From Microglena sp. YARC (Eukaryota; Chlorophyta; Chlorophyceae; Chlamydomonadales; Chlamydomonadaceae), in assembly GCA_022414725.1 (NCBI GenBank), contig CM039462.1, forward strand, positions 131,943,891 to 132,007,890: a stretch of DNA of 64,000 nt. The letters are read 5' to 3'. Numbering within the stretch: the first letter of the stretch is position 1; each line of letters begins with the position of its first letter. The notes beneath the pieces are model-generated. The model was not told the origin of the DNA. It saw only the letters and a program-made list of their open reading frames with translations, and did no database searches. Of the stretch, positions 9,008 through 63,770 are shown piece after piece. A program made the translations under genes and the position numbers.

Positions 9008-10352
9008 ATCTAATTGGTACCCCCCATGCCACCACCCAGCTCCTTACACGCACCACCAGTTGGCACAGCCACCTAGCTCCTAACATACACCACCACCAGT
9101 TGGATACCTATCTAATTGGTGCTCCCCGTGCGGCCACCCAGCTCCTAACATGCGCCACCAGTTGGCACAGCCACCTAGCTCCTAACATACACCACCACCA
9201 GTTGGATACCTATCTAATTGGTGCTCCCCATGCGGCCACCCAGCTCCTAACATACACCACCACCAGTTGGATACCTATCTAATTGGTGCTCCCCGTGCGG
9301 CCACCCAGCTCCTAACATGCGCCACCAGTTGGCACAGCCACCTAGCTCCTAACATACACCACCACCAGTTGGATACCTATCTATCTAATTGGTGCTCCCC
9401 GTGCGGCCACCCAGCTCCTAACACGCACCACCAGTTGGCACAGCCACCTAGCTCCTAACATACACCACCACCAGTTGGATACCTATCTAATTGGTGCTCC
9501 CCATGCGGCCACCCAGCTCCTAACATACACCACCACCAGTTGGATACCTATCTAATTGGTGCTCCCCGTGCGGCCACCCAGCTCCTAACATGCGCCACCA
9601 GTTGGCACAGCCACCTAGCTCCTTACATACACCACCTCCAGTTGGATACCTATCTATCTAATTGGTGCTCCCCGTGCGGCCACCCAGCTCCTAACACGCA
9701 CCACCAGTTGGCACAGCCACCTAGCTCCTAACATACACCACCACCAGTTGGATACCTATCTAATTGGTGCTCCCCGTGCGGCCACCCAGCTCCTAACATA
9801 CACCACCACCAGTTGGATACCTATCTAATTGGTGCTCCCCGTGCGGCCACCCAGCTCCTAACATGCGCCACCAGTTGGCACAGCCACCTAGCTCCTAACA
9901 TACACCACCACCAGTTGGATACCTATCTATCTAATTGGTGCTCCCCGTGCGGCCACCCAGCTCCTAACACGCACCACCAGTTGGCACAGCCACCTAGCTC
10001 CTAACATACACCACCACCAGTTGGATACCTATCTAATTGGTGCTCCCCATGCGGCCACCCAGCTCCTAACATACACCACCACCAGTTGGATACCTATCTA
10101 ATTGGTGCTCCCCGTGCGGCCACCCAGCTCCTAACATGCGCCACCAGTTGGCACAGCCACCTAGCTCCTAACATACACCACCACCAGTTGGATACCTATC
10201 TATCTAATTGGTGCTCCCCTTGCGGCCACCCAGCTCCTAACATGCACCACCAGTTGGCACAGCCACCTAGCTCCTAACATACACCACCACCAGTTGGATA
10301 CCTATCTAATTGGTGCTCCCCGTGCGGCCACCCAGCTCCTAACATGCGCCGC
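9008..10352. repeat. Higher-order minisatellite, 273-bp period
   Basis: Sub-units built from ggatacctatctaattgg, gctccccgtgcggccaccca, gctcctaacatgcgccacc and agttggcacagccaccta. They combine into a 273-bp repeat (equivalent points at 9267, 9540, 9813 and 10086), with near-identical copies. The right end (gcgccgccagattctac) merges into the last exon of the minus-strand gene at 10339 and provides its TAG stop. Confidence 0.9.
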
Positions 10353-13300
10353 CAGATTCTACTTTCCTGACGCTCGGCAACTTTTGAGGTAGCTGTGGTG
10401 ACGCTCCCAAGGCCACCACCTGCTCAGGGCTGCTTGCTGATCGACTACTACATGGTTTTTGGTTAATGGACGGCAGGTTAATAGACGGCAATCGCTTGGC
10501 AAGGGACAGGATAGCCTCAGACTCGTCCCTGTCTTCGATGCGCAAGTGTCCACCAGTGCGGTTGAAGGGAGGGAGGCCCAAGCTACTTGCTAAGTTTTCT
10601 CGCTGCGAGTGCCAAAGCCCCCCACTGCTTCCATGGCCATGCGTTGACTGAATAAAAGAGGAAACAAATTGCAGCAACTCTTTGTGATCCATATTCTGTG
10701 CCGCCTCAAGCACTTGGTCACTCTCACTCTTCTGGTTCACGGCTGACGAGTGGCCGCCAGCAGTCACGCAGTGTGCTTTCGAATTCGAAGTCAAATTCAA
10801 ATTTCCGCTGTGTGCATCTCCAGCCCTTGGCGATGAACTTTCTAGCTCGTTCCGTGCGTGTGCAGGAGGGGGATGACCATGCTGGGTCTTAGGCGTTTTG
10901 ATCTGTCTAGTGCCTGCAAAGAAAGCCACCTGCTGCTCTCCATCCATGCCCCCCCACTCCTCCCCAGTCATACGACCAGCCCCAGCACCGCCAGAGGCGG
11001 CTCGGCCTGTGGCGTAGGGCGAAGGCAGGTCCTTGCGCACATCTCTGTAGTAATTCTTCAGACGGGTTAGGGCAAATTTCTGCCGCTCTTCCTCTCTCCT
11101 GTTAGCAGCAAGGCCAAGGGTGTGTGTGTGTGTGGGTGGGGTGGGGTGGGGTGGGGAATAGGAGATGGGGTGCAGTATGTGTGTGTGTTTGAGTGGGGTG
11201 GGGGTCAGGGGTGGGGGGCCCAATACTCCCAAGTGCTTGATCATCTGATCATGGTCATGCTTCTTCACCAAAACACCTCCTCCTCGTCACCACCACCACA
11301 CCACACCACACCTTGACCAAAAAGGGTGGCTCTCAGAGATGAGATACTGAAGGTGGGTGGGGCAAGGGGCACATAGCCACGACAAGTTCTAAGACCGTGT
11401 CACAAGCGGCACAGAAAATCGCTTTAGCAGTCACCGGCAGGGAGTTTCGAAAGTAGTGGAGAAAGCAGCTACTCGTAGCTGAATAGAGCCACTAACATTG
11501 AACAACTTTTGCGAAGGATCTTGACCGTTGCGATGCTGATAACTCTAGTCATGCGCACTCCAACTATGAGCAACAATTGTGGATGCGGAGGTGGTTGGAA
11601 TCGTTCAAACGCCTGGACATCTGTCGGACAGACGGACAGCGGACAGCCAGACAGACGGCGGAGAGAGACCCGGGGGGAACTTGTGGCTTCAGCCCCTGGG
11701 GGGTCCAGAGGGGGCTAAAGCGAAAACAACAACAACAACAACTTAGTGATTATCATAAGTCCCCCTTGACTCGGCCAAGCCGAGGGCACATTTGGAGTCC
11801 AGTAGGGCACCAGGAAAAATGTAATCATCATAATCATCATCATCATAGTAAACATCACAGTATCCCTGCAACCACCAACCACTGCACCCCGCTTCGACCC
11901 ACCACCACATCATCACCACCGCACCTCTATCAAACAGGTGAGGGGGCTATGAGGACAATATAGTGAAGGTGAGTGGGTCAAGCTTACCCTGCCAACACTC
12001 CTAGGCTAAAAGGACTTGCTCAACTGTGACAGGAGGGGCTAACACGAAAGGGCACAGGTATTGGTAGCCCCGGTGGTTGGCCCCAGTGAAAGCAAACGGG
12101 CTGGCACCCTCAACCTCACACCTCGTAACAAGGCGTACTATTTGTATATTTATTGGTAGCCTCAGGGCAGCATACAAACAAATCCTCACCTTGCCAGTAC
12201 TCCCAAGTGCTTGGTCATCTTATCCTGGTCTTGCTTCTTCACCACCTGAGACCTCATAGTCAGTATTTGGTGCTGATACGGGCTGTCCGCAATACTGCTT
12301 GTTTCCAACCCGTCGAAGGAAGCGGGAGTTGAAGAAGGGGAGCAGAATTTTGCAGTGTTAAGTTCGAGCAGCTCGTCGATTGTATCTTTCAGAGAGCCCT
12401 TGCAGCATGCAGCATACTTCTTGTATGGCCTGAGCTGCTCAGTGCTCAGGGTCTCTTGGCGTAGCCGATTGACCATGTGGTCGGCAAGGAAGATGCCCAA
12501 TGCTGCCAGAGTCTCCATGGCACTTGGCTGGCTCATGGTTCCTGCACCACGCATAGTGGCATGCCCTACTTGCCTCTGCTTGACCATGACCTCCAGAGCG
12601 TCTGCCTTGTTCACCAGCACAGGCAAAACCTGGAGTTTCATTTTTGGGGCGTCAGACTAAAATCAGTAAATCCATTATTTTAAGGTTTACATATCATTTA
12701 AAGTTTTTAGCGGGCTTGAAGCTTTTGGTTCCTGCATCATGCATAGTGGCATGCCCTACTTGCCTCTGCTTGACCATGACCTCCAGAGCATCGGCCTTGT
12801 TCACCAGCACAGGCAAAGCCTGGAGTTTCATTTTTAGGGCGTCAGACTAAAATCAGTAAATCCATGATTTTAATATGTTAAGCAGGCACTTGGCTGGCTC
12901 ATGGTTCCTGCACCACGCATAGTTGCATGCCCTACTTGTCTCTGCTTGACCTTGACCTCGAGATCATTGGCCTTGTTCACCAGGACAGGCAGAACCTGTG
13001 ATGTCGATTTCCATATTTGTGTGCTTAACAGTGCCACATCCCACTGCCTGTCCTGGTGTCCAACTGGACCACCACTCCTTGGACCCCCTTGTCCCTCCTG
13101 CCCCCACCCAGTCACCCACCCACCCCCCACCCCACTCCCAACCACTCCCAACCACCCACACAAACACACTACCCCACTCCCAAATATTGGCCAAGGTGTC
13201 TCGCAGGAAGAAAAGTAAAAGCAAGGGCCTGGACAGGTGTCCTGGTGTCCCACTGCCGTGGTTTCTTACCCTTACCTTTGCCACTATTATTTTGGCACCT

Positions 13301-16300
13301 AACAGTCTCTGCTTCTTATGCTTCCTCTTCTAAGAGACCCTTACTCTCTATTATGCCGGACATGGCTGCTCGCGACCGGATGCGCACGAGAAAACAAAAT
13401 AGCTCGGTATCTAGCTGACACATTTGCACAAAATGCGATCTACTCAGAATTCGATTCTGAGAATTTTGGGATGTGCACGGCTGTCCCATACCATGTCCCA
13501 AATTTAGGGCATTTGGGGGATTAGGCACTTCTGGAGATTATTTTGTATGGGGCGTCCGGGGATTATGGAGATATCATGTAATGTTATTAGCGGGCATGAA
13601 AGATACATCAGTGGGACTTGCTCACTTTTTTGTGTTTTACGCATTGCAGGTTGATTGAATCGGCGCGACCCCAGCGGGACGCAAGCCTGATTTCAGGATT
13701 GTGGCGCAGCACGGTATAGGGAGGAGCGTGAAGCGCGGAGCCCTGAGGGGTTCAGAGGGTAGTGCATCGCACTGGATCGCACCTGGTCACTCAATTTGCG
13801 ACGCATCGCAAAACAAAAAGTGTGTGTAGTAGCAATGCAGGCTTTGCTAGACAAACAAATTGAATGAGTGAGGACTGAGAGAGATCGGTAATTCATGACA
13901 GCATTAACCCCCCCCACACACACACACACACCCACCCTGCCCTCCACCCACCCACCCACACAAGCACACACAACCTTCCCTCCAACCAACATATTGCGGC
14001 TTTTCCGAGGCCACCCACCCCTCCACCTACCCAATTGCCCGCCCGCCCGCTCGCCCTATATATGAGCTACCATTTTTGCTTACTTGAAGCTATATGACTC
14101 ACATTGAAGTTGAGCATCATCAGCATCAGCTCAGAGCGTCCAACTGTCAGACCCTCTTGCCTCACATACTCCCAAGCAACCCGTTTCTGGCGATCCTTCT
14201 CATCTAGGGTGGCATACCATGAAAATACTCTGAGCAGCTCATAGTCATGGCGGCGCATGACATCCTGTTATCAGCAGCAGTGTGAAGGTGTGCATTATAG
14301 TTAGTTATAGTTAGTTACAGTCAGTTTTCACCATTGTTAAGGGATAGCATGACATCCTGTTATCAGCAGCAGTGTGAATGTGTGCATTATAGTTAGTTAT
14401 AGTTCTTTATCACAATTGCCATGGCGGCGCATCACATCCTGTTATCAGCAGCAGTGTGAATGTGTGCATTATAGTTAGTTATAGTTCTTTATCACCATTG
14501 TCATGGCGGCGCATCACATCCTGTTATCAGCAGCAGTGTGAATGTGTGCATTATAGTTAGTTATAGTTCTTTATCACCAATGCCATGGCGGCGCATCACA
14601 TCCTGTTATCAGCAGCAGTGTGAATGTGGGCATTCGAGTTAGTTATGGTTCTTTATCACCATTGTCATGGCGGCACATCACATCCTGTTATCAGCAGCAG
14701 TGTGAAGGTGAGCATTAGAGTTTTTCTTTTCGGCTTCTCATAGCAGCTTCCTGGCAGCTCCATTGAGTCGGCCACTGGGCTGTACCAAACTATTTCAGCA
14801 GTTCTGGACAGCTGATTATGCCAGCTTCAAGGTGCTCGAGGCCGTGCCAGGTTCGGCTGAATAGCGAGTCAGGGGAGCAGCCTAGAAGCTGCTGCTTGTA
14901 GCTGGAAAGAAAAACACTGCATTAGAGGGGCTGTGTTAGTTAGGGATAGTGTTGTTAAGGGATAACATGACATCCTGTTATCAGCAGCAGTGTGAAGGTG
15001 TGCATTAGAGTCAGTTATAGTCAGTTATGACCAGCAGTGTGAAGGTGTGCATTAGAGCAGGGTTTACCTATTCGGCTTTTCATATCAGCTTCCTGGCAGC
15101 TCCTTTGAGTCGGCCACTGGGCTACACTGTACTGTGAACAATTATGGCTGTGAAGTCCACGGAAGTGCACTTCACAAACTAAAACTTAGGCCAACCTCTG
15201 AAGTTTGCACCCGCAAAGCATGCTGCCTGGTTTCCACGGGGGACATGGAATTGGGAGATAGTGGGCAGCCCAGAGATGGCTGAAAAACCATGTTTCAATC
15301 CAATCCAACCCAACCTCTATAGCTTTTAGCTAGACTCCTAATTTTCATGCTATACCAGGTTATAATCTTTATAACCCTTATAATTGGCCATTTTAGAGCT
15401 CGCTTTATGTACAAAGCTACTGCACTGTCTTTTTGTATACTTTGCCTTTTTATTGAAGTGCTCACTCACCAGCACCTCCGGGCTATTTTTTTCAAATCTG
15501 AAAGTGGGTTTTTACTAGCTTTATGGCTTTAGGCCTCCTCCAGGGACAGCGTTTTTGTGCTCTTATAGCTTATTATAGCTTTTATGGCCTTTACAGCTTT
15601 TCAGGGCCATTTAGGGCACTCAAAAAACGTTTTTATTTAAACATTTTTTTGAACGAATTTTGCCAAAACGGGGTCAAAACTAGCGATCGCTATATATAGC
15701 GTGAAAAACATTCCTGCAGCAGCTCTCTTGGGTAGACAGCATCAATGTTCTCCATCCGAACAGCTATTCTGCTGAGCATGAGAATCAGGGGATCACAAAT
15801 GGCTGTAGCTGTGAAGAAGAATGGAAGAGCATTACCCAGACTAAAACCTAGGCCACCCTTTGAAGGGATCACTCACCAGGACCTCCCTTGTGTAGATAGC
15901 ATCAATATTCTTCACCTCCACAGTTATTTTGTTGAGCATGGGGATCAGGATGACTTTGCAAATGGCCAGCAGTGCCTCCTCCCCCTTGGCCTCTTTATCC
16001 GCAGGAGTTTCTAGGGGTGCACCGATGGGTAGAGGCGGGGGAGGATACCTCCAGTTGGCAATGCTCTTCAGGAGGGACAGGAACTCTTCGTAGTCACGAT
16101 GTAGATCCCGTCGGTCCTTGGCTGCCTTTGCCTCGCCACAGAAGATCATATCAGCTTGAACTATTGTCAGCTGGTTATCCAGCAGGCCAGCATCCCTCAG
16201 CATGCGGATGAACCCAAATGCATCAATCTCCTTCAGGCCAGTCCTGACCATCACATTCTTATCACAGTAGAGCTCAAACACAATCTGCACCTGCTCCATG

Positions 16301-16842
16301 ATGGTCTCTGGGGATAGGTCCTCGAGCTGCTTCTCAGCAGCGGACAGCTTCTTTGCATTCGCCTTGGCTGCTCGAGACAAGCCATTGGCCCTGGCGCTAC
16401 AATCTATGGTACCAAACAAGACAGCCGAGGGTCCCCCTTCAGGCCGCACCATCAAGCACTCCGGGCTCTTACCCTGCACAAGAGAGACAAACAAAAGCGG
16501 CGATCATCTCTGGTTGTGTTGTGTTGTGTTGTATTGTGTTTGTGTAGTGTTGTGTTGGGCTGTATTGTGTTGGGCTGTGTTGTGTTGTGTTGTGTTATGT
16601 TGTGTTGTGTTGGGTTAGGTTGCGTCGTGTTGGGTTGGATTAGGCTGGGTTGTGTTGGGCTGGGTTGTGTTGTGTTGGGTTGAGTGGTGCAATAAATAAA
16701 TAAATAAATAGTACGCCTTATTACAAGGCGTGAGGTTCACTTTGCGAGAAGCGTGTGGACAGCAGAGTGACTTGGAACATGGCTTGAAAGATGATTCATT
16801 GCAGCCCGACTGCAGGGTCATTTTCTCGTGAAGTGTTTTGAA

Positions 16843-16878
<36 letters not shown>

Positions 16879-16921
16879 GTGATGGTGATGGTGATGGTGA
16901 TGGTGATGGTGATGGTGATGG

Positions 16922-16955
<34 letters not shown>

Positions 16956-18248
16956 GGTGGTGATAATGATGATAATGATGATGATGATGATGATTGACAG
17001 TTTTCCTGGTGCCCTACTGGACTCCAAATGCCCGCAGCCCGCGGCTTGACGGAGTCAAGGGGGACTTATGAACATCACGGAACGTGTATGTGCCAATCTG
17101 TCTAGTGAAGAAGAAAAGAAGATTCCCCAGTGAGTCAATGAAGATTGAGTCGTGATCCATGCACGCAAAGGGCACAATCAAATGCTATGTGCCACTACTT
17201 CATTTTTGAGCTGCTCGTGGCTGCTTCCCGCCAGCTCCAACAGCCAGCAAATCTTTCAGCTGCTTTAGAATGCCTGTCATGTCAGCTTCCAGGTGCGCTA
17301 GCTAGCTTCTGGTTTGGCCCAAGGATGGGGAAAGCGAGCTGCCTAGAAGCCGCTAAGCATTGCCCAAAAAAGAAACAGTGCAGTGGGCACGGGCCCATCG
17401 GCCTGCATGCCTCCATGCTACGCAGACAGCCTACATGACAGTGTTAGGTGCACGTTGCAATGCCTTATCTTTAGGGAACGGCAATATGATATCATATGAT
17501 ATCATGTCATCTTATGAGATCATATGATGCCGGCAGTCTGACAAGGCCAAAGTTACCATTTATATACAATTTCATATGATGCAATTTGTATGATATCACA
17601 TGATATCATACTCGCCTTTGGTCAAAATCATATGATATGCTAGTCCCTACTTATCTTGCCTGCAACTTGTTCATCTGAATGTATGTCCCCCTTTCCTCTG
17701 CTCACCGATCGCATACAAGGCTTTAGGGCATGTTACATCATGGGTGTGGATGCATTGCTGCTCGGCTCGTCACCACCACCATCAAAATGTCCTAAGCAGG
17801 CATGGCGATGAGTTCCACCAGGGGGAGTGCACTTTGCATGCTAAGGCTACTAGTGCTATCTTGGTCTGGGGATCCTTCAGCTGTCAGCCAGGGATCTTCA
17901 CCACAGGGAGGGATTGATAATGGCTGTACTGTATGTAATGGAGTCACCAACCCGAGCTTACCATTTTGCCGAGGCATGTCTCAACATGGGTAGTGTCGTC
18001 TAGTGTCTGCGTAGGAATTCCGGGAGCAGTGAAATTAGTGGCCGGCAGGGATACAAAAGTGGACTCTAATTCTGCGTCTAGATGAGCTTGAGCATTCTTA
18101 CAAGGTAGCTGATAAGGGCCTCGATCTTTGGCGAGGCTTTTGCGAGGAGTTCACCATCCGCCTCGATTAGCCTAATGACATGTGCAGGAATGACACTCAG
18201 CTGAGTGGCTAATTTCCTTGAATCTAGCTTATTCGTGTTATTCGCCAT
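10339..18248 (-). CDS. Unknown six-exon protein with EF-hand/p25-alpha-like segment (about 716 aa)
   Basis: Not recognised as a named family. Exons (descending): 18248-18102, 18006-17962, 16473-15877, 14264-14103, 12629-12190, 11098-10339. Each has an AG acceptor and a GT donor (gtaaga, gtaagc, gtgagt, gtgagt, gtgagg), and the phases join without a break. Residues about 124-203 (ELYCDKN ... GLLDNQL ... DYEEFLSLL) follow the helix-loop-helix spacing of TPPP/p25-alpha and EF-hand proteins. Exon 4 (LLRVFSWYATLDEKDRQKR ... LMLMMLNFN) looks like a second degenerate hand. The C-terminal exon is low-complexity with many Ser, Gln and His. The TAG stop lies inside a minisatellite. An in-frame ATG at 18335 would add 29 residues. 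A flagellar or cytoskeletal role is possible for such folds but is inference. Several exon edges are duplicated in its introns. Confidence 0.6.
11224..11271 (-). repeat. Stray copy of the 3' end of exon 5 of the unknown 10.3-18.2 kb gene
   Basis: Translates as VKKHDHDQMIKHLGVLG, against VKKQDQDKMTKHLGVLA at the true exon end (12190-12240). The copy lacks the gtgagg donor, so it is a decayed duplicate inside intron 5. Confidence 0.75.
11700..11990. repeat. Dispersed repeat with ATC/ATG microsatellite core
   Basis: Contains cccccttgactcggccaag, gggcacatttggagtccag and tagggcaccagg, then catcatcat tracts. Related inverted or partial copies lie at about 16810-17070 (long ATG run) and 23250-23475. 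It appears to be one element family carrying its own trinucleotide seed. Confidence 0.5.
12520..13030 (-). repeat. Triplicated 5' edge of exon 5 (unknown 10.3-18.2 kb gene)
   Basis: Three copies of acceptor plus the first 90-110 nt of exon 5 (VLPVLVNKA ... VKQRQVGHATM) lie at about 12522-12660, 12725-12855 and 12890-13025. Only the copy nearest the rest of the exon reads on into it. The other two lack the downstream coding sequence and end in intron-like DNA. All three keep an AG before the GTTTTGCC/GTTCTGCC start or a close variant. Confidence 0.8.
13636..13835. mobile_element. MITE, rGCGACGCGTCGC family (family B)
   Basis: GC-rich palindromic element with gcgacgcatcgcaaa near one end and gcgcgaccccag near the other. 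Related copies lie at about 26995-27200, 36790-36964 (with perfect 8-bp target duplication), 41965-42135, 44230-44400, 48575-48680, 56695-56875 and 60350-60545. Confidence 0.6.
14250..15065. repeat. Tandem copies of the 5' edge of exon 4 (unknown 10.3-18.2 kb gene)
   Basis: Units of about 80-110 bp carry the exon 4 acceptor region (minus strand: cactgctgctgataacag, then gatgtgatgcgccgcca). Five lie at 14255-14712, and further partial ones at 14950-15060 after a MITE. Each copy preserves a usable-looking AG acceptor. Confidence 0.8.
14720..14918. mobile_element. MITE, cagcttctaggcagctcc family (family A)
   Basis: About 200-bp foldback element with cttcctggcagctcc at one end and gcagcctagaagctgctg at the other. 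It interrupts the exon 4-edge array. It is one of the commonest elements in the window; see the copies with target duplications at 26550, 42459, 57115 and 60038. Confidence 0.65.
15712..15818 (-). repeat. Diverged duplicate of the 3' end of exon 3 (unknown 10.3-18.2 kb gene)
   Basis: Encodes AICDPLILMLSRIAVRMEN then IDAVYPRELL, against AICKVILIPMLNKITVEVK then NIDAIYTREVL at the true exon end (15877). It has an acceptor-like ttcttcttcacag but no GT donor (gaatgt), so it is probably not spliced. Confidence 0.75.
16505..17030. repeat. GTTGT-type low-complexity run and ATG microsatellite
   Basis: 16510-16680 is a degenerate tgtgttgtgttg stretch. 16842-16995 is an (ATG)n/(GTG)n microsatellite whose open frames are meaningless. 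Between them (16684-16735) is a copy of the hairpin element with gtacgccttattacaaggcg. Confidence 0.8.
17188..17382. mobile_element. MITE, family A
   Basis: Starts near cactacttcatttttgagc and ends cccaaaaaagaaacagtg. The flanks share only five of eight bases as a target duplication, so this is an older copy. Confidence 0.6.
17472..17649. mobile_element. hAT-type MITE with ATGATATCAT core (family C)
   Basis: Begins TAGGGAACGGCA and ends GCTAGTCCCTA. The flanking 8 bp are identical: CTTATCTT at 17464-17471 and 17650-17657. The interior is made of atgatatcatatgatatcat palindromes. Eight-base duplications and a TAGGG end fit hAT elements. Family members lie at about 24354-24604, 41638-41789 and 42172-42360. 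Confidence 0.8.
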
Positions 18249-18335
18249 GCTCTGACAACGCTGAAAAGGAATTGGCAGTGGCGAGAAAAACAAGTCCCCC
18301 GCAACTATGTCCTCGCGAAAGGCAACATGGAACAA

Positions 18336-19315: not shown

Positions 19316-19354
<39 letters not shown>

Positions 19355-20095: not shown

Positions 20096-20222
20096 TACTT
20101 GCAGCACCTATAAGAAAACCCTGTCCACATCTATATCATCGGCTGTAAGGAAGGCTAAGGCTAACCTGTTGACACCAGCGAAAGAGAGAAACGGCATGCC
20201 CCATGCCGCCCACCATGCCAGT
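20096..20222 (-). repeat. Decayed duplicate of the last exon of the eIF(iso)4G gene
   Basis: Just downstream of the TAA, the stretch around catcggctgtaaggaaggct and cctgttgacaccagcg matches the true last exon (gtcagcagtgaggaaggct, gccttgacaccagcagtcg), with indels that break the frame. It is a tandem copy of the coding 3' end. Confidence 0.65.
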
Positions 20223-20237
20223 CTTCTAGCTCGGAAG

Positions 20238-23200
20238 TTAGAGAGGGACTGCATCTGACAGGCTTAGGTCCTTGAGCCAAGCCTCTACACTGGCCATATC
20301 CCCATCTAGTTCGTCAGCAGTGAGGAAGGCTGACGCCTTGACACCAGCAGTCGAGAGGACCTCGAGCGCCTTGCTGTCTCCCATACCAGCCTGCATGCAC
20401 TTGAACGCTTCTTCAGAGAGATCGCGCTTAGGCTCGGCTCCAAAGTCACCAGACAGAAGCTCGGGAAGAGCTGAGGCAGGGAGAATATTCTGCTGGATGG
20501 CGGAACCAATGAAATGGCCGAGAATGGAGGGGGCCTTGGGGACGTCAAGACTGTGAGCAAGGTGAGAATGGGTGAAAGGGTTGCTCACAGGAAGTGGGGT
20601 TCAGCCTTGGGCAAGGTTGTGAGGGGTTGGGTGGGGGCGGGGGTCTGGGAGCTGAGTGATGGTTAACACGAGGGAAAACATTTTGTGTTGAGAAACTGGA
20701 CTTCAGGGTGTCTAGGATGAGAAACCCACCAAGTTGGTTGAGGTGTGTTGCACGATGCTGTCTGTTGTATGGTAACTACCATAGCATAGTAAGTGAGGGT
20801 GGCAGCAGAGACGTGCGACACCTGGCAGTTAATAAATGTGAAATCTGCGATGCAACCGACAGCCTAGCAACTATTGCGCATTTAATCAGATGGTTCCAGA
20901 TCTTACAAGTCTACACAACAGCGATCATTATGTGGACTGGCATACAACATATTACTCATTGCCAATTTCACTGGGTCAGTATCTAATATTGAAGATGTCC
21001 AGTGATTTATATACTCTTTCTTAGGTCATTAATATCAGCAATCAAACCCTGCCCTGGATATGTTGACTGTCAGAGCAAAGGGTTATTCAAGGGTTCTTTA
21101 AATTCTACGTTTGAGATGTTTCCGGAGAAACAAACTAAAGAAAACCTGTGTTTGAGATAAGAATAGCAAGGGATTGAATCAGACCCTCACTCCAGGTGAT
21201 GTATAACCAGGTGATGTATAACCATAATGATGTATAACCATAACCATAATCCCTCCAGGTGATGTATAACCAGGTGATGTATAACCATAATGATGTATAA
21301 CCATAACCATAATCCCTCCAGGTGATGTATAACCAGGTGATGTATAACCAGGTGATGTATAACCATAATGATGTATAACCAGGTGATATATAACCGTAAC
21401 CATAATCCCTCCAGGTGATGTATAACCAGGTGATGTATAAAACGGCCCTCCCAGCCTCACCCATACAGGACAAACTGCATGGGGAACACAGTGTGGTCTT
21501 GGTACTTCGATGAATTAGAGGGCAGTCTGAAATTATTTGAAGGTACAGCTACACAGCTGGTCCCTTATTTGAGATTTGAATATGAAGTCACCAAACTGTT
21601 AATGGTTTGGGTGAGCAGTCAGCTAAGGTTCATAGCCTTTCTACTGCAAACACTTGTGTCTTCGCCTTAACAAGTCGCCTTAAAAAGGTTATTTCTGTTT
21701 AATTTCTTGTTAACATCTCAAGGGCTCACCTCAAGTCCTCAAGCATATCCGTGTAGACCGAGAGTGCAGTAAGGATGTCTTCTAATTTGACCAAGCTGTT
21801 GGTGTATAGGTGCAACAGGAGTTCCTCCAATGCATCCACCTCCTGCAAGATGCAGCGCACGTGAGAAAGAGTAGTTAGAAGTTAGAAAATCGAATAGGCC
21901 CTGCAAAGACGACTCACACATCCCCAAGCCCACCAAAGCCCACACGCAAGACACCTACAACAAGAGGCAGAGCGCATGAGAAAAGGCACCAGTTAGAAAA
22001 GTGTATATGCCCTGCAAGACGACTAAAAAATCCCCAAGCCCATTAAAGCCCACACACATCACACCTCCTACGACATGCAGCATGCATGATGGGCGCCAAT
22101 TAGAGAAGCTAACATGCCCTAAAAAGACGACTCACACATCCCCAAGCCCAGCAAACTGACACGCAACACACCTCTTAGAAGAAGAAGCGCGAATGAGCAA
22201 AGGCATCAGTTTGATAAGTGAACAAGCCCTGCAAAGACGACTCAAACATCCCCAAGCCCACCTAACCCCACAAGCAAGACACCTCCTACGGCATGCAGCG
22301 CGCATTAGAGAAGGCACCAATTAGAAAAGTGAATATGCCCTGCGAAGACGACTCCCCCCCCCCCCCCCCCCAAGTCCACCAAACCCCACACGCAGCAGAC
22401 CTCTTACGACATGCAGCGCGCATGATAGAGGGCGCCGATTAGAGAAGCTAACATGCCCTGCAAAGTCGACTCAAACATCCCCAAGCCCACCAAACCCACA
22501 CGCAACACACCTCTTACAAGGTGCAGCGCGCATGAGAACAGGCACTAGTTAGAGAAGCGAACATGTCATGCAAAGACGACTCACACATCCCCAAGACCAC
22601 TTAAGCCCACACCCAACACACATCCTATGGCATGAGGGACGCATCCAGGAAGGTACCAGTTAGACAAGCGAGCATGTCCTGCTTATATGACCCCCCCCCA
22701 CACACACAAACCCACACCCACACACGTGCCACGAGATTTAGATGGATGATCACGAGATCTAAAAGGCACCAAAAACTATCCCGACCTTCGTGCGTTGCAG
22801 TTTTGGAAGTGTTGCTTATTTCTGGGGATATCTTTGCTTTGAAAAAGATAGCACGAGAAATATGCCACACATCCCAAACCCCATCGCACGCCTCCATCCA
22901 TCCATCCCCATGAGCTCATATACAACCTTCCTCTCTTAAGTGTACATGCCCTTGTACCTGGACTACAATATATATTGCTTCCTCCCCAGTAGAATCACCA
23001 AGCTTTCGCACCTTCTGCTTCATCGAGTTAAGCATAGTGTCCAAGCCAATTTCAACCAGCTTTGACATAAATTCAGGCGACTCCAGTTCTTTGACGCACG
23101 TACTGGCCTCTGCCTTATCCAAGGTGGAGCAAAATTCCGAGAACAAGCTTTCTGTCTTTCTTTTCAAGTCCTCCTCCGAACCTGGCTTGCCAGGGGCCCT

Positions 23201-26200
23201 AAAAAAGTCACATGTGAAGGGTGGAAGGAGATTAGAATAAGCATACTACATGAAGCCCCGGGCACATTTGGATCCCAGCAGGGCCCCAGAAACAAGTCCT
23301 ATTAGTGAGAGTGTTGGCAACGTAACAACAGGTGGCAACGGAAATGGAGCTGGCCGAAGCCAGTTAGTTATGAGACAGTTGGCTGACGTGCCAAGCTTCG
23401 TCTCGGTCGTCAGTCGGACAAACGGACAAGGGGGTGAATCTGGGGGCTCTAAAATTGTCATCATCATGATCATACAACATGTTGTCGGGCATCCATCCTC
23501 CTCCTCCCACCATTGCCTCCCTGTCCTTCTTCCTCCTCATCTACCCAGCTTAGCATTTTCTGCACCCTATCTCTCCCCCCACATTTATAACTGCTGCTAA
23601 CAGTCTCACTGTAACTCACTGTAGGAACAGTGAGTTTAACTTTCTAGTGCTTCATCCTTGGTCCTCTTTCGAGCTCTTGCTATTTTAGGGGGGACAAGGT
23701 CAAGAAGCCCTTCCTGGTAGTCTGGAAATATCCTATTTATTCAAGGTTGGACAACTCCATTCAGCTTAAGTCAGAAACTCGCTGGACTGTAACATACATA
23801 CACACCACCATCACTTACCCAGCACTGGGTGCACTGGATGATGCAGCAGGGGCAGCAGCAGTGCTAGCAATAGGGCTGGCGTTAGCACGAGCGATGGGCT
23901 GGTAATCACCAAGCAGGGCTGAGCTGCCAGTGAAATGCTTTTGGGAGGAGTTTGTCGAGGGCTTGTAAGACCAGATCTCGGCATCACCGTCACCCGCAGC
24001 GGAGCGCAGGGGTGGTAGGAGTGCAAAGTCTTCCACAGCTCCGATCCGCTGCTGAGCTGGCAGAGTCGGCAAGCTGGCTGATGTGGGGAAACAACGGGAG
24101 AGGGAGTGCTTGTCAGTCATTTCTGGTGTGAGTTTTGGGGGCATGAAAACGGGGTATGCACTTTGCTAGTGATGCATACGCGGGATTGTAGAACTTACGT
24201 CATCGAAGTTCAACTAGGGTTCACGCCACGGTCACATGAGTTTATAAAACCTAGGTCATGAAAATGCAACCAAGAACATGAAACCAACATATACCCAGTC
24301 ACGGAATTGAAAACAATCAGAACCCTGGGAACTTGTGAAGACATGCATACGAGTTGGGATATCATATGATGTTGACCAAAGGCATTTATGACATCATATC
24401 ATATGCTGTTGGCCAAAGGTGAGTATGATATCATATCACTTGATGTTCACCAAAGGCGTTTATGATATGATATGATATGATGTTGGCCAAAGGCGAGTAT
24501 GACACCATATCATATTACAAACTGCATCATATGATATTGTACATAAATGGTAACTTTAGCCTAGTCAGACTGCCAGCATCATATGATATCATACTGCCGT
24601 TCCCCATGTATGCGTAAATAAGCTTCAGCAGGTACTTGCCAACATGGTACAAACGATGGTAAAGGTCTCAAACAAATGTATGTAGGCAGCAAACAAACAA
24701 CTTCATGTATGCTGTTGTAAATGCCCAACATGCATCGGGGCTTCAAGGCTCAGTTGAAGAAATTCAACCATGTGGAGTATCGTCACAGAAATCAGTAGCG
24801 CGGATAAACCATTCTCATCATTGCCTTCAGAAGTTCAGGGCACAGTCATGTTTGTGCATATGTTGCAGGCCAGAGTAGCCAGATTGGCTAAGGGGACTTG
24901 CTCAACCAATACGTATGTCAGTAATACTATCAGGACAAAGCTGGACCAGGCAGGCATGCTTGGAGCCAGGAGTCAGTAGGAGTTCAGTGAACGAATAGCA
25001 TTAGATACTTGTTTGAAATTCACTGGCTTGATATGTACTTCTTTGGCATGTACTGGCTGAACATAGAATTCTTTAACATTTACTGGCTTCATTCATACAT
25101 ATTTAACATATACTTGTTTGACGTATACTGGCTTTATGTATAACTGTTTGACATATACTTGTATGATATGCACTTGTTTGACATATACTTGTTTGAAGTA
25201 TACTGGCTATATATTCTTGTTTGACATATGCTTGTTTGACATATGCTTGTTTGACATATACTGGCTTAATATATACTTGTTCGACATATACTTCTTTGAT
25301 ATGCACTTGTTTGACATATACTTCTTTGATATGCACTTGTTTGACATATACTGGCTCAATATATACTTGTTTGACATATACTTCTTTGATATGCACTTGT
25401 TTGACATATACTGGCTCAATATATACGTGTTTGACAGATACTGGCTTGATACATACTTCTTGACATATTCTTTCGGATTACATTGTTCAAGTTCTTGTAA
25501 AACATTTAGTCAAGCCCCAGACTCACCAGCTATATTTGAGGACACCATACCCAACTCAGCCTCAGCCTGCGCTCGCACATCTTCCAACTTCTTAGCAGTG
25601 AAAACTTCGCGCCGTGCAACCCAATTGGACTTTCGCAGATCCTACAGAGAAGGAGGTTAAGAAAAAGGTTGAGAAGACAGGAGAGCACTGATTCAACATA
25701 ATGATGGGATTGTATTTGTAGCTTGGTGACCATAAAACTAAGCTTAGCCAATTATAAGGGTGCTGATTGTTGAGCCGTGTGAACTTGTTGGTTGAGTGCA
25801 CTAGTCCCCCCCCCTCTCCCCCCCCCCCTCAAGACAACCAATTGTAGCAACTAAGCATGGGTTGGCTCACTCAACTCACGCCCCTGGGGCTGTTTTGTAC
25901 AGGGCGCGTGCATGTGGCAAGTCTTATTGTTATTGTTGCTGCTCTTGTAATTGGCGGTGTTGATAACGGTGTTGCTGCTGTTGTTGCTGCTGTTGTTTCT
26001 ACCAAAGCTGTTTCTGTTGCTTGTGTTCTTGTTGAGCTGTGGAGAAACACGAACGCCTGTAAATTGGGTCGTCTGGTTAGTAGACGTGCCTCTTTACTCG
26101 CCACATGCCCAGTTTGCTGACGCCACCCGCACAAAGCGACCCTACACTCTGCTTGAAGTTCGAGTGCACTGCAGGCACGCTCAACCCTAGCCCCATAATT

Positions 26201-32060: not shown

Positions 32061-32070
32061 TATGTTATGT

Positions 32071-32129
<59 letters not shown>

Positions 32130-33170: not shown

Positions 33171-33177
33171 AAGGTGG

Positions 33178-36770: not shown

Positions 36771-36789
36771 TAGTCACAGTCATCCACCA

Positions 36790-39630: not shown

Positions 39631-39639
39631 TACCCCTAG

Positions 39640-43396: not shown

Positions 43397-43439
<43 letters not shown>

Positions 43440-50436: not shown

Positions 50437-50501
<65 letters not shown>

Positions 50502-57400: not shown

Positions 57401-60400
57401 GGTGTGGGTTGGTGGTGTGGTGTGTGTGTGGGGGGGTGTTTGGTGGTGGGTGGGAAGCTGGGAAGAAGCTGAGGGGGCAGGCTGTGATTGGAACCTAGGG
57501 TTGTGATAATCATGGGTTGGGCCTGACAGCACTGCTCTTTGTTTCGATTCATGTGCAAGTCCCCTTAGCCTGATTGGCTACCCCTAGACAGTATCATACA
57601 TTTGCATAGGCAGAACAATACACGGTGAGCAGTGCAACGTGAGCCTAACAAAGATGAGTAATTCCTGAGGTGCTCCCGTTGATTAGAACTGTCCCAGTCG
57701 TCTGGTGCCCATGACTGTGACGTACATTTGAATGGGCAGGACAATACTCGGTGAGCAGTGCAACGTGAGCTCAACAAAGATGAGTGGCTCCTGAGGTGAA
57801 AAACAATGGCAGCTGGCTTGGCACCAGAGAACACGGCGAACAATGCAACGTGAGCCCAACAAAGATGAGTGGTTCATGAGGTGAAAACAGGGACAGTTGG
57901 CTTTGCACCAGAGAACACGGTGAGCAGTACAACGTTAGCCCAACGAAGATTAGTGGCTCCTGGGGTGAAAAACAAGGGCAGTTGGCTTGGCTCCAGAGAA
58001 CATGTTGAGCTGTTCAACGTGAGCCCAGCAAAGATGAGTGGCTGCTGGGTTGCTACTGTTGAATAAGACCTTTCCTGGCTTCCCCTGGACCATAGCATAC
58101 TCACTTACGTCTATACTTACATTTCGTGGTTGGCCCCAGTGCAAGCAAACGGGTTGGCCCCATCAACCTAACGCCTCTTTATAAGGCGTATTATTTATTT
58201 ATATGCTTAAGTATTTATTTATCTGTACTTACATACGCAATCATGCAGGTTCCGATCCGAGGAGGAGATTGACGCGTTAGTGTTTCTTTCTTTATCTATC
58301 TGAACTTGCATACACAATCATGCAGGGTCCGATCCGAGGAGGAGATTGACGCATTTGTGTCATCACACAAGGACATCACTGTTGTCCTTGAGTCGAAATC
58401 TAAAACGTGCAAGTAAGTGGCCAGGTCTGGATCAGTATATCTTATATTTTTGGTATACTTATGTCCGTATATCTAACCTGGTATATTTGGTATAAGTATG
58501 TCCGTACGGTATATCTCATCTGGTTTAGTTTGTATAAGAATGTCTGTGCAGTATATCTCATCTGGTATATTTGGTTCAAGTATGTCCTTGCGGTATATCT
58601 CATCTGGTATATTTGGTATAAGTATGTCCGTGCGGTATATCTATTCTGGTATATTTGGTATACGTTTTTCCGTGCGGTATATCTCATCTGGTATATTTGG
58701 TACAAGTATGTCTGTTTGGCATATCTCATCTGGTATATTTTGTATAAGAATGTCTGTGCGGTATATCTAATCTGGTATATTTGGTATAAGAATGTCTGTG
58801 CGGTATATCTCATCTGGTATATTTGGTATAAGAATGTCTGTGCGGTATATCTCATTTGGTATATTTGTTATACGTATTTCCGTGCAGTATATCTCATCTG
58901 GTATATTTGGTGTGGAGAATCAGGGGGTTATCTCATAGATGCTGACATGCACTCAGAATGTTTGGATGCATGTATGCATGTCTGTATTGCAGTTTTGCTT
59001 CCTTGAATCTGTTTCGTATGTCTTATGAGATGGTAATGCAAATGCATGTGTATCATACCAGATGGTTACACAAATGCATGTGTATCATACCAGATGGTTA
59101 CACAAATGCATGTGTATCATACCAGATGGTTACACAAATGCATGTGTATCATACCAGATGGTTACACAAATGCGTGTGTATCATACCAGATGGTTACACA
59201 AATGCATGTGTATTCTACCAGGGCAGAGTGTTTCTTGTTGCAGAAAGGGGTTTTTCTAAGGGAGATAAGGGATTTGGTGTCTTTTAAGGTTGGGCTCCTG
59301 GTAGCGATTTGGGTAGGTGGCCCAAAGCAGGGACCCTGCCCAGGGGGTTGGGGGGTGGGGCGGGGGAGTCTCAGGGTAGCGGAAGGCCAAACAGGGTACC
59401 ATGCAGCAATCACTACTGTAAGCAGAAAACAAAACGCTCTGTTCCAGGGGTGGGCCTTAATTTTGACTCAGGGAAACAGGTGTCACATGGCTCCCAGGTT
59501 ATATTGTACCTTCGACTCTGTCACATGGAATATCTAGTATCCACTGTTTCTTTTTTGAGCTACCCATGGCAGCTTCATGCCATTTCACTTTGCCAGCCAC
59601 TGGGTCAATCCCAAATCTTTCAACTGCGCTGGAATGCCCGTCATGCCAGCTTTCAGACACATTATCTAGATTCAGCTTTGGCCCACGGATGGGGAAATGG
59701 AGCTGCCTAGAAGCTGCTTCGCGTAGCAGCAAAAGAAAATCAACAGTGCTCTTATCTAAAATCTGTCTTCACCCACCTCCACAGGCCCTGCCAGGCGTTT
59801 CTCCACGACTACACTCTGATGGCTGACAGGTTTCAGGACACAGCATTCCTGGTGAGCCTGGCTCTGCCCAGGGCTTTACAAATATAAATTGTAAATATAA
59901 ATTAATAAATTAAATGTAAATTAAAATACACAAATTTTGAAAACATGCGATATGGTAGTGGAGAGATAAGCACATTGCATATTTGTGGCTGTGTGGGGTG
60001 AAGTTGACTGTCACAGGGGGCTAAACTGGTGTGGATGCACCGTTTCTTTTTTTGGCTACGTGTAGCAGCTTCTAGGCAGCATCTTTCCCTCATCCTTGGG
60101 CCAAAGCCGAAGCTAGAAAGTGCATCTGAAAGCTGACATGACGGGTATTCCAGTGCATTTGAAAGATTTAGGCTTGACCCAGTGGCTGGCAAAGGGAGGT
60201 GGCTGGAAGCTGACATGCCAGTGTGTGGATGGGTGGGTTGAGGTGTATGTGCCTGGAGGTGATGGGCTTCTAGAAAGGGGGAGATACCTAGCAAACAGAC
60301 ATAATTCAGCACTGCGTGAATGGAAGTGTTTGATTGTGCAGGTTTGTGGCACTTTTTCTTTTCCCTATGAAGCCTCGCCGTTCTGTTGCTGCTTGGCGAC

Positions 60401-62355
60401 GCGTGGGTCTGGCTAAACTAGTCGGAAACGCCCCCCCGAGCTCACAGAGCTCTGCGCTTTGTGCTTTGCGGGGTTATGGGGGGCAGCGCGTCACACTGGG
60501 GTCGCACCAACTCGCTCATTTTGCGACACAAAACAAAACAGTGTTTTTTAGTCCTTAGTTCCCTAAAACCAGAATGGACTAAGGTTGTTTGTACGTGTAT
60601 TTGTATGGGTAAGAGTCCAATTGTATCCAGATAGTCATTTTGGCTAAACAGACTTGAACAACCTAAAGTATTTGATATGGATTCCATGTATGGGTCATCT
60701 TTATAGTACTTGACCTCAGGTCCTCTGTTGTGTCCTCACAACTATTTGGAGTCCATGCCATAGAGTGCTTGTTGGTTAATTGGTTAGTTGGTTGGTTGGT
60801 GGCCACTGTTTGGAGTCCATGCCATAGAGTGCTTGTTGGTTGATTGGTTAGTTGGTTGGTTTGTGGCCACTGTTTGGAGTCCAGGTCATAGTGTACTTGT
60901 TGGTTGTTTGGTTGGTGGCCACTGTTTAGAGCCCATGCCATAGAGTGCGTGTTATAGCCCCTCCTAGTTGTCTGTATTTTTCTTGCTTGTTTGAGGTTGC
61001 GCAAGTCCTTAAGCCTGTTCGGCTCCCCCCTGGACTGCAACATACAAGCGCATGTTTGCCGCCCTCAATATAGCAGAGACACCACTGTTACACTGGTTAC
61101 ACTGGTTACACCGGATGAGGACCCGATTACACCTAAGGGTTCGGTGCCGACCGAGGTCTTTCTCACATGCCCTGCGCTAGCTGCGCATGAACCCGCAACT
61201 TGGGCCCGTCAAGTTGATAAGGGTGGTCAGGTTGTTTACAATACTTGATGCACTGTTCCCCAACAAATCGTTGAGGGTTATACTCATTGGTGGTATTAGT
61301 TGGCCCCAGTGCAAGCAAACGGGTAGGCCCCCTCAACCTCATGCCTCGTAACAAGGCGTATTATTTATGTATTATTTACTAATTGGTGGTATGTTTACCT
61401 GACCTGACCCTTTCTCCTAAATGCCGCAGGAGGTGTATGGTGATGACAGTCCTGCGCTTCGAAAGCTGATGGCAAGATGGAATATTAAGGTGAGCGCCAT
61501 AGTTTTTATGTTCAGCTACGAGCAGCAGCTTCTAGGCAGCTCCTTGGGTTCTCTCTTCATCCAAACTGTAGGCAAGCTAGGCACCTAGAAGCTGATATTT
61601 ACAGCTTTTCAGTGCTCCTGGAATCTTTGGGTTTAGCCCAGTAGGAGTCTCAGGGAGCTGCCTAGAAGCTGGTGCTGGTAGCCGAAAAGAAAAACAGTGG
61701 TGATTACAGTAACAGAGTCACACCATGAGATACTGGTGCCAGGAGGAATAAGTCAAAATAATGTTAACGTTAAGTTTTTTTTTCCAAGGTGTTTGGTAGT
61801 TTCCAATTCAAACTATGGTGACTTTCCCCAGCTGCGGCGTACGGGAGGGTCCCCTTAACACCACGCCCCTCCAGGCGTTATCTTTTTTTTCTTTTTTTTT
61901 CCAATTCAAACGGTTTGAATGGGCACCTACAGGTTGGGAATCAACTTCATGATGGTTTGATACGTGTTGTATACGACGCATTTTATGACATGTTATGATT
62001 TGATTTGGTATGACCGTATGGGTGAATTTGGTAGGATTTTGAATAATTTGAAATGATCTGATCTGGGATTATGTGGTTTGACATGATGTGATGTGATATG
62101 ACATGCAAGCGCTGAAAAGTAAGAAGAAAGATTCACAGCACCAATCCCATACTGAGCCCTACATTTCTGTCCCCTCCTTTTCAGACCACTCCCAACTTCC
62201 GTATCTACCGCGAGGGCGAGTGTGCCAAAATCATCGTCGGAGTAAAGAAAACGCAACTGACGGAGGAGATCTTATCTGGCCTGAAACCAGAAGAGCGAGG
62301 CAGGGACTGGACAGAACCCGAGTTTACCATTGACTCTGACTCTGATGAGGACTGA
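54409..62355 (+). CDS. Plastid-targeted thioredoxin-like protein with CKPC site (213 aa)
   Basis: A thioredoxin-fold protein, probably a plastid thiol-disulfide or redox-sensing factor of the TrxL/CDSP32-like kind. Exons: 54409-54665, 58326-58412, 59785-59851, 61430-61489, 62185-62355; phases 2, 2, 0, 0 join correctly. Residues 1 to about 60 are rich in Ala, Ser, Arg and Thr with few acidic residues, as in chloroplast transit peptides. The redox motif is C114-K-P-C117 instead of the usual CGPC, and the intron splits the Lys codon. Residues 158-162 (TTPNF) supply the cis-proline. The strand after the active site (FLEVYGDDSPALRKL) resembles CDSP32-type domains. The C-terminus is acidic (TIDSDSDED) and its coding DNA is amplified downstream. 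Subfamily and localisation are inference; the Trx fold is well supported. Confidence 0.82.
55003..55400. repeat. Family A MITE and TAGCA pentamer run
   Basis: About 55003-55205 is a family A MITE. 55323-55396 is a (TAGCA)n run of about 15 copies, in intron 1 of the thioredoxin-like gene. Confidence 0.75.
56337..56543. mobile_element. MITE, family A
   Basis: Flanks gtgtagtg and gtgtagtt match at seven of eight positions. The arms are ggcagttcccctcgctgtc and gggagctgcctggaagctgc. Confidence 0.75.
57115..57316. mobile_element. MITE, family A, with perfect 8-bp target duplication
   Basis: Identical ATGCAGGA at 57107-57114 and 57317-57324. The element starts catggcttttctttttggc and ends ggaagagaagaagtt. 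It lies in intron 1 of the thioredoxin-like gene. Confidence 0.85.
57590..58070. repeat. Minisatellite of about 85-90-bp units
   Basis: Five to six units with gtgagcagtgcaacgtgagc, ccaacaaagatgagtggct and ccagagaacacgg. Confidence 0.85.
58238..58350 (+). repeat. Duplicate 5' edge of exon 2 of the thioredoxin-like gene
   Basis: acttacatacgcaatcatgc then ggttccgatccgaggagg (58230-58272) precedes the true acttgcatacacaatcatgc then ggtccgatccgaggagg (58303-58345). Both have a catgcag acceptor. The upstream copy would stop after 17 or so codons. Confidence 0.85.
58430..58915. repeat. 42-bp minisatellite (gtatatctcatctggtatat)
   Basis: Eleven or so units of 42 bp in intron 2 of the thioredoxin-like gene. 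The multiple-of-three unit gives a 199-codon frame of VYLIWYIWYKYVCA repeats that is not considered a gene. Confidence 0.9.
59035..59222. repeat. 32-bp minisatellite (gatggttacacaaatgcatg)
   Basis: Six nearly identical 32-bp units, with tgtatcatacca completing each. Confidence 0.9.
59542..59748. mobile_element. MITE, family A
   Basis: cactgtttcttttttgagct to aaaatcaacagtg. Flanks ctagtatc and ctcttatc match at six of eight. It lies 36 bp upstream of exon 3 of the thioredoxin-like gene. Confidence 0.75.
60038..60223. mobile_element. MITE, family A, with perfect 8-bp target duplication
   Basis: Identical TGTGGATG at 60030-60037 and 60224-60231. It starts caccgtttctttttttggc and ends ctgacatgccagtg. 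Confidence 0.85.
60350..60545. mobile_element. MITE, family B
   Basis: ggcgacgcgtgggtctggc through tcattttgcgacacaaaac. It resembles 41965-42135 closely in the inner gggtcgcaccaactcgc part. Confidence 0.65.
60735..60955. repeat. 62-bp minisatellite (ggccactgtttggagtccat)
   Basis: Four units, each with gccatagagtgcttgttggt and variable gttggttagttgg. Confidence 0.85.
61498..61699. mobile_element. MITE, family A, abutting the exon 4 donor
   Basis: The element starts 8 bp after the end of exon 4 (61489). The possible left target copy (gtgagcgc) is the donor itself; the right copy is gtgattac (five of eight). The arms are cagcagcttctaggcagctc and gggagctgcctagaagctgg. Confidence 0.65.
61805..61890 (+). 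mobile_element. Truncated tRNA-type SINE (3' part)
   Basis: ccccttaacaccacgcccct and ccaggcgttatc match the 3' end of the SINE at 35595. The tRNA-like head is missing. Confidence 0.6.
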
Positions 62356-63770
62356 TGAGGACTCTGATGGACTGATGAGGACTGGTGAGGACTGATGAGG
62401 ACTGACCCTGACTCTGATGAGGACTGGTGAGGACTGACGAGGACTATGACTCTGATGAGGACTGTCGAGGACTCTGATGAGGACTGACTCTGACTCTGAT
62501 GAGGACTGATGAGGACTGGTGAGGACTGATGAGGACTGACCCTGACTCTGATGTGGACTGATGAGGACTGGTGAGGACTGACGAGGACTATGACTCTGAT
62601 GAGGACTGTCGAGGACTCTGATGAGGACTGACTCTGACTCTGATGAGGACTGATGAGGACTGGTGAGGATTGATGAGGACTGACCCTGACTCTGATGAGG
62701 ACTGATGAGGACTGGTGAGGACTGACGAGGACTATGACTCTGATGAGGACTGTCGAGGACTCTGATGAGGACTGACTCTGACTCTGATGAGGACTGATGA
62801 GGACAGATGAGGACTGATGAGGACAGACGAGGACTGATGAGGACTCTGATGAGGACTGATGAGGACTGGTGAGGACTGACGAGGACTATGACTCTGATGA
62901 GGACTGTCGAGGACTCTGATGAGGACTGACTCTGACTCTGATGAGGACTGATGAGGACTGATGAGACTCTGATGGACTGATGAGGACTCTGATGAGGACT
63001 GATGAGATTGTTTTGTGCCAGGATCCATCAGCAGAATATCTAGGAGTGGGTAGAACCCGAGTTTACCCTTGACTCTGACTCTGATGAGGACTGATGAGAT
63101 TGTATTGTGCCAGGATCCATCAGCAGGATATCCAGGAGTGGGTAGAACCCGATTTTACCATTGACTCTGACTCTGATGAGGACTGATTAGGACTGATGAT
63201 ATTGTTTTGTGCCAGGATCCATCAGCAGGATATCCAGGAGTGGACAGAACTTGAGTGCACCCTGACTCAGAATCCATTAGGACGAGGACAGGGACTGCCT
63301 AGACACCTTGCATCGACAGTACTACTGGTCATCGTGACGCGATGCAGCGGCACGCCATGCAGGAGTAGATAGAACCTGCGTGTGCATCCTTGACTCATAA
63401 AGGAGGACGAGGGCTATGTGGCATTGTGGCACGATGCAACAGAAGGGAATTCAGGAGTGGGCAGAACCTGAGTTTGCCTTGGACTCCGACTCCAATGAGG
63501 ACAAGGACTAAGACGCATCGTGACGCATGGCATTGGCGGGCCATTCAGCAGTGGGCAGAACCTGGGCACACCCTTGAGGACTCCGACCAGGACAAGGATG
63601 AGGTCTACATGACATTGTGACAAGTTGCATCAGCAGTCCATTCAGGAGTGGACAGAACCTTGGCCCTCCGACTCCAATGAGGACAAGGACTAAGTAGCAT
63701 CATGACGCATGGCATTGGCAGGCCATTCAGCAGTGGACTAAACCTGGGCACATCCCTGAGGACTCCTAGG
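62340..63770. repeat. Arrays derived from the last exon of the thioredoxin-like gene
   Basis: 62340-63010 is a (gatgaggact)n-type minisatellite seeded by the codons for the SDSDED tail. From 63010 to 63770, seven or eight larger, increasingly diverged units carry caggagtgggtagaacccg, gagtttaccattgactctg and gatgaggac. These equal the coding end (WTEPEFTIDSDSDED) plus the 3' flank gtgccaggatccatcagcag. Confidence 0.9.

Follow-up and report, generated by a model that had tools for sequence, protein, structure and literature searches.

Why should the ends of exons, together with their splice sites or stop codons, lie copied over and over in the neighbouring introns and 3' flanks of a gene? The question is raised by a stretch of 64,000 nucleotides from Microglena sp. 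YARC (GenBank assembly GCA_022414725.1, contig CM039462.1, forward-strand positions 131,943,891 to 132,007,890; C1:131943891-132007890), here called the window, in an assembly of 568 Mb and 2390 contigs. An earlier note, made from the letters of the window alone, had described such copies in four genes (A to D below) and proposed a recurrent local duplication process centred on splice junctions, perhaps linked to intron growth and perhaps an undescribed habit of this lineage. We find that the copying of exon edges is general in the genes that we sampled and is a known kind of structure in a new lineage. The process behind it is probably an unselective local duplication that is filtered by selection and not aimed at splice sites.

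Exon edges copied next door in four genes

The models of genes A and B are two proteins of a public proteome, P0084 and P0085 (EukProt gene15223 and gene15224, adjacent gene numbers), and because they were derived independently of the repeats they form a fair basis for a test of exon edges. The exons of genes C and D were called by hand. Among the named relatives of P0085, chlorophytes predominate (Chlamydomonas, Volvox and Haematococcus, among others), which makes the host a green alga.

10339..18248, minus strand: gene A, p25-alpha-like, 6 exons, identical letter for letter to P0084 (716 aa), GT/AG borders
18248-18102, 18006-17962, 16473-15877, 14264-14103, 12629-12190 and 11098-10339 (stop TAG), minus strand: exons of gene A
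20238..30281, minus strand: gene B, eIF4G, 13 exons, stop TAA at 20240-20238, identical to P0085 (755 aa), GT/AG borders

Direct copies stand on the outer side of 12 exon edges of the window, seven on the exact models and five on hand-called exons. Arrays were found with Tandem Repeats Finder (TRF), and z values refer to shuffled sequence.

15717..15813, minus strand: one copy of the A3 3' end (15877-15974), in the intron downstream of the exon; z 24, 78% over 95 bp
14240..15033, minus strand: copies of the A4 acceptor (edge 14264), upstream of A4; 82-bp TRF units and further copies
12721..12998, minus strand: two copies of the A5 acceptor (edge 12629), upstream of A5; self-blastn and tblastn of P0084
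11220..11270, minus strand: copy of the 3' end of A5 (12194-12244; edge 12190), near the intron's far end; 90% over 51 bp, z 20
9002..10355, minus strand: 273-bp array whose first unit contains the stop of gene A (A6, 10339); TRF 4.9 copies, 97% match
20119..20224, minus strand: 3'-flank copy, diverged, of the coding end of B13 (20294-20392); z 15.7, 71% over 99 bp
21880..22682, minus strand: diverged 110-bp array that abuts and slightly enters the B12 acceptor (21842); TRF 7.2 copies, 85% over 53 bp, z 10
42953..44076, minus strand: about ten donor-edge copies of a gene C exon (end 44030); 101-bp TRF units, best 96% over 67 bp
48473..48526, minus strand: copy of the gene C donor edge at 48914; 81% over 54 bp, z 13.8
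49013..49312, minus strand: acceptor and exon-start array of the gene C exon 49040-48914; TRF units of 73, 63 and 53 bp with 10-bp repeats between; 100% over 42 bp
58215..58283, plus strand: copy of the gene D acceptor edge (exon start 58326); 90% over 69 bp, z 35
62331..63766, plus strand: array repeating the stop of gene D (TGA 62353-62355) and the coding bases just before it; TRF and self-blastn, 92% over 60 bp

Each of the ten edges that we compared with 300 shuffles scored above all of them (z 10 to 35); the remaining two, the A4 and A5 acceptors, rest on tblastn, self-blastn and alignments of spanning copies. Six copies span the A4 acceptor with 91-98% identity and the AG kept in 6/6, while those of the A5 acceptor lie at 12721-12831 and 12885-12995, with the AG kept in the one that was aligned. 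At both acceptors the predicted public protein P0084 uses the innermost copy. Some copies do not cross the border: the alignment stops at the edge itself for A3, and it falls short by 4 bp at the 3' edge of A5 and by 54 bp at the B13 stop. What the earlier note had seen in the window thus holds up at these 12 edges: acceptor edges, donor edges and stop codons are all affected, and the copies have diverged to different degrees (identities of ca. 70-98%), as it had argued against a collapsed assembly.

Edge copying in CCT and kinesin genes

Sampling beyond the window drew on CCT and kinesin genes. A Pfam search with Cpn60/TCP1 gave 64 matches at 30 CCT loci, 27 of them usable after L006, L011 (intronless) and L018 (stops) had been dropped, and the kinesin set consists of the first 20 stop-free rows of the match list, L068-L070 being the next such rows. 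Kinesin exons were picked by rank before their DNA was viewed, at a point when the match table already hinted at copies beside a few. Three CCT loci with stops in the match (L023, L032 and L034) are excluded from the counts of decay, unit share, edge prevalence and decoy sites. Only edges that passed the cuts for matrix and distance were retained, 34/54 for CCT, 30/40 for kinesin and 89/120 in the prevalence count; the latter adds a further 13 CCT and three kinesin exons and leaves out one CCT exon with a stop (C3:22890400).

Copies of part of the exon lie beside 19/44 acceptor and 19/45 donor edges in this count (38/89, ca. 43%), in line with the genome habit that had been proposed from the window. 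Across the 27 CCT loci an exon end may have as many as seven copies, upstream for 5' ends and downstream for 3' ends; only L023, whose match runs across an intron, departs from this pattern. TRF on one CCT gene found arrays with units that we read as containing exon edges. Two CCT paralogs, L031 and L033, carry arrays at opposite edges of the same exon, so the origin or replacement of these arrays postdates the gene duplication.

Position is one-sided without exception: 47/47 CCT and 77/77 kinesin exon copies are found outside the edge that they copy, and spanning copies lie upstream at acceptors (49 of 49) and downstream at donors (44 of 44). Most end at most 15 bp from the exon end (43/47 for CCT, 72/77 for kinesin).

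Decay and splice sites of the copies

Mismatches between copy and exon fall on codon positions 1, 2 and 3 in the numbers 109/84/192 for CCT and 143/124/328 for kinesin, i.e., position 3 has 2.26 times the mean of the other two when pooled, although these counts are not independent because copies of one exon share the changes of that exon. An exon that changes mainly at synonymous sites and a copy that changes everywhere would give about 2:1, close to the excess seen. Gaps break the reading frame in 60 of 64 cases, and the spacing of copies modulo 3 (31/29/45 for remainders 0, 1 and 2) speaks against any preservation of frame.

The splice dinucleotide has nevertheless usually stayed. At least one copy spans the border at 34 of 70 edges, giving 93 spanning copies, and 32 of these 34 edges have a copy with intact AG or GT. 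The dinucleotide is intact in 80/93 copies (AG in 43/49, GT in 37/44), slightly above the ca. 0.78 expected from flanking identity; a smaller separate count gave 34/41. When scored with a splice matrix, built from just 17 introns of genes A and B, 55 of the 92 scored copies match at least as well as the real site, and the median difference between copy and real site is 0.00. With most dinucleotides retained and the median score unchanged, the decoys are not visibly purged.

Edges compared with their surroundings

Local duplication is widespread around these edges. Local direct duplicates make up 22.6% of the bases of the window, compared with 2.2% for inverted ones and 0 in one block-shuffled control, and many arrays of the window lie away from exons (134 TRF rows in all, some overlapping). 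The share of local direct duplicates is 37-65% in four CCT genes, and in eight arbitrary 10-kb stretches it ranges from 32% to 97% (mean 58%), against a mean of 11% for inverted ones; these stretches were taken at hand-picked round coordinates and not by a random draw. Two of them consist mostly of repeats, namely L045 and L043 with 97% and 82% local direct duplicates, and L043 is also 46% inverted.

Are exon edges hit more often than the rest? At a score of 24, local direct copies are present at 15/54 CCT exon-end windows and 199/756 flank windows, inverted copies at 0/54 and 6/756, and copies from unrelated loci at 2/54 and 14/756. Copies span 11/34 CCT edges and 379/1161 flank points, the latter at 25%-38% at all distances with no rise beyond that range near the edge. 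For kinesin the numbers are 16/30 edges and 399/860 flank points (32-57%), the count being too low at points farther out than 500 bp, as the loci stop at 1 kb. Pooled, CCT and kinesin show no edge enrichment (27/64 edges vs 778/2021 flank points, p 0.61), bearing in mind that points within a locus, like copies of one exon, are not independent. The interior of exons is a different matter: copies cross the CCT exon core at 13/136 points, falling with depth from 9/73 through 3/33 and 1/17 to 0/8 and 0/5 (0/13 at depths of at least 240 bp), and the kinesin core at 9/89, i.e., 9/57 and then 0/32 deeper. From the process postulated by the earlier note, recurrent local duplication is hence supported by the window and by both samples, whereas its centring on splice junctions, which would have shown as enrichment at the edges, is not.

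Relation to known systems

Introner elements are one dispersed family of near-identical inserts. The gene C array, the one array tested in this respect, matched its own genomic place only (1001 bases, very common words being skipped by the search), and copies at the CCT and kinesin loci resemble their own exon, unlike such a dispersed family. Mutually exclusive exons, on the other hand, arise when a whole exon is copied in frame and kept by selection; here the copies are partial, 60/64 gaps are off-frame and the changes fit no constraint.

The closest parallels are the amphioxus "mirages", minisatellite units that span an exon/intron border and are ca. 150-160 bp long in the globin genes (PMC3087553); further lancelet cases appear in a paper on PGBD5 (PMC3902484). 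Alga and amphioxus have in common that the unit spans the border (as in the 93 spanning copies at 34/70 edges and at edges of the window), that 5' and 3' borders alike are affected, with the copies towards the intron (upstream of the acceptor in 49/49 cases, downstream of the donor in 44/44), that the authentic exon stands at the inner end, and that many units keep AG or GT (43/49 and 37/44). A link with intron gain has also been suggested for the mirages (PMC3087553). The algal case differs in its host, a chlorophyte outside the cephalochordate range, in its extent (ca. 43% of sampled edges, 38/89), in the inclusion of stop codons and in that edges are duplicated no more frequently than their flanks. 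Splicing and length instability have been studied for the mirages, while the algal copies are known from the sequence of one assembly. We suggest that the algal structure may work like a mirage, an analogy with no claim to shared origin. As a kind, the habit is therefore not undescribed, contrary to what the earlier note had considered; what is new is the lineage, the scale and the numbers.

Other accounts come less close. Introns of Chlamydomonas and Volvox are rich in tandem repeats that are denser near intron-exon junctions, but the available part of that account does not describe coding edges inside the repeat unit, and its figure of ca. 4% tandem repeats for C. reinhardtii compares with 22-58% here under different definitions (PMC3887541). 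Human genes in segmental duplications have internal tandem repeats at exon-intron boundaries whose variation can change splicing (PMC2812944). Minisatellite variation at exon borders is the likeness to the alga, but the human units average 30 bp and belong to recent primate paralogs, and they do not amount to a general habit (PMC2812944). The Rogers model derives intron gain from tandem duplication of AGGT sites (as cited in PMC3087553); local duplication makes spare splice sites in both, but here the copies sit in existing introns. Our search found no report of coding exon edges inside such arrays in algae, which is weak evidence of absence given that it reached few subscription journals and saw sources in part.

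Competing explanations

The explanation that we prefer is a genome in which short direct duplications arise locally at a very high rate and would be blind to exon edges, hitting genes and spacers alike. Units at exon edges, mostly ca. 60-300 bp, would often expand into arrays. Where a duplication crosses an edge, the complete exon would stay at the inner end and the spare copy would come to lie outside, in the intron or 3' flank, tolerated while the spliceosome uses the exon-proximal site. The exon would then remain under protein selection, the outer copy would decay freely, usually retaining a sequence-intact decoy site, and duplications deep within exons would be removed. The decoys are presumably ignored in splicing, and the copying event may be slippage, unequal exchange or templated local insertion.

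Several results weigh against such blindness to edges, and some of them would suit a duplication physically tied to splice junctions, in which a roughly nucleosome-sized unit centred on the edge (ca. 75-90 bp of exon and a similar length of intron) is copied outward repeatedly, e.g., because of positioned nucleosomes, R-loops or DNA breaks. At edges of CCT and kinesin exons, the spacing of copies has a median of 165 bp, and exonic parts average 74 bp for acceptor units and 88 bp for donor units. As a share of the whole unit, exonic sequence concentrates near one half (mean 0.49, standard deviation 0.15, 29 multi-copy arrays), a spread too narrow under all six nulls that we tried (P 0.0000 to 0.047), although a Kolmogorov-Smirnov test of the shares falls below 0.05 in two of the six only (0.003 and 0.008). 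Edge units are also longer, with a median of 172 bp vs 116 bp in five arbitrary stretches and 102 bp in the window; for this comparison the eight stretches were split into five plain ones and three that are satellite-like or masked. At the stricter score of 40, CCT exon ends lead with 12/54 vs 99/756 flank windows, and the amphioxus globin units mentioned above are of 150-160 bp. Moreover, a conserved partner keeps a copy recognizable for longer, and equal rates of visible copies are therefore no proof of equal birth rates. In genes A and B the deviation runs the other way, towards depletion: with at least 12 bp on each side, 3/38 edges are crossed vs 59/266 intron points (p 0.03), next to 82/503 intergenic and 1/60 exon-interior points in the same test at score 30, and 60-bp windows at score 24 give 3/35 exon ends vs 40/174 intron windows. 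Finally, none of 15 two-copy pairs of high identity (at least 93%) is exactly head-to-tail (spacers of 18-318 bp), a result that tells either against simple slippage or in favour of a rapid erosion of part of the unit. The filtered two-copy local duplicates, L041 8839-9014, L053 1271-1736 and 13 others, are all spaced.

We still regard a mechanism tied to junctions as unlikely. It predicts an excess at edges over flanking points that the pooled sample lacks and that genes A and B reverse, and arrays across whole CCT genes have the same unit length as edges (median 188, p 0.42), in a set that includes the edge arrays. The clustering of exonic shares is explained in part by detection limits and selection: exonic parts below ca. 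30 bp are probably hard to detect because of the score cut, and acceptor units with a large exonic part and little intron would move the branch point and pyrimidine tract off the AG and be disfavoured. Judged by spacing minus exonic part, the intronic part is 60 bp or more in 19/19 acceptor units but as short as 4 bp at donors. Were duplication tied to junctions after all, intron growth would take place mainly at the ends, and almost all genes would have competing runs of splice sites that only exon-definition splicing could resolve.

It is very improbable that the copies are functional, as mutually exclusive exons or splice enhancers under selection. The mostly intact dinucleotides (80/93) would fit such a role, as would the A3 copy, which is free of stops in one frame, but copies that are partial and mostly frame-broken, a position-3 excess near the 2:1 of a constrained exon and a free copy, a spacing without preference for multiples of three and the opposite-edge arrays of L031 and L033 do not. 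An artefact of assembly or gene models, for which it may be said that the copies come from the assembly and not from reads and that some small contigs may be foreign, is scarcely credible in view of copies diverged to varying degrees (ca. 70-98%), models of A and B that equal public proteins exactly, the conservation of the CCT and kinesin families and the rarity of inverted copies around the sampled genes. Unselective duplication filtered by selection thus remains our reading, and under it a contribution of the copies to intron growth, the link offered by the earlier note, is plausible.

Other features of the window and its genes

The p25-alpha profile score of gene A is 22.5 bits, just under the Pfam cut-off of 22.6; P0084 was its sole match in the public-proteome search, and a PDB search with the p25 exon gave no match. 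Gene B has the Pfam domains MIF4G and MA3 and matches eIF4G in the PDB, clearly for the MIF4G exon only and weakly for the last exon (best E 0.069). Elsewhere in the assembly, a small contig holds a 51% eIF4G-like match with a stop (G000:C1395:22370-22645), which may be a paralog, a pseudogene or foreign DNA. For the pieces of gene C we found no relative in the public-proteome search and none in Pfam. A thioredoxin-like label for gene D was dropped after its joined pieces gave only DUF3876 in Pfam (E 0.05) and no thioredoxin. Pfam searches of two whole 4999-residue frames, with X at stops, returned nothing; single open frames gave the domain matches.

An open frame at 33513-35015 (minus strand) matches RVT_1 with 33.6 bits, a retroelement between genes B and C. 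Arrays of a 10-bp unit (TCAGTTATAA-like) lie at 45329-45575, 46344-46455 and 49013-49312, up to 3.7 kb apart, one of the three interleaved with an exon-edge array. Perfect runs of C or G, 27-47 long, are found at 19317, 32504, 43398 and 50441, one of them inside the gene C array.

Implications

Copied exon ends may mislead gene prediction in such genomes. The value of this one lies in an unusual density of sequence-intact decoy splice sites beside conserved exons, where a correct protein would require the spliceosome to choose, among several similar sites, the last acceptor and the first donor. These genes offer a natural experiment on exon vs intron definition, on the deciding weight of the splice-site sequence and on the growth of introns.

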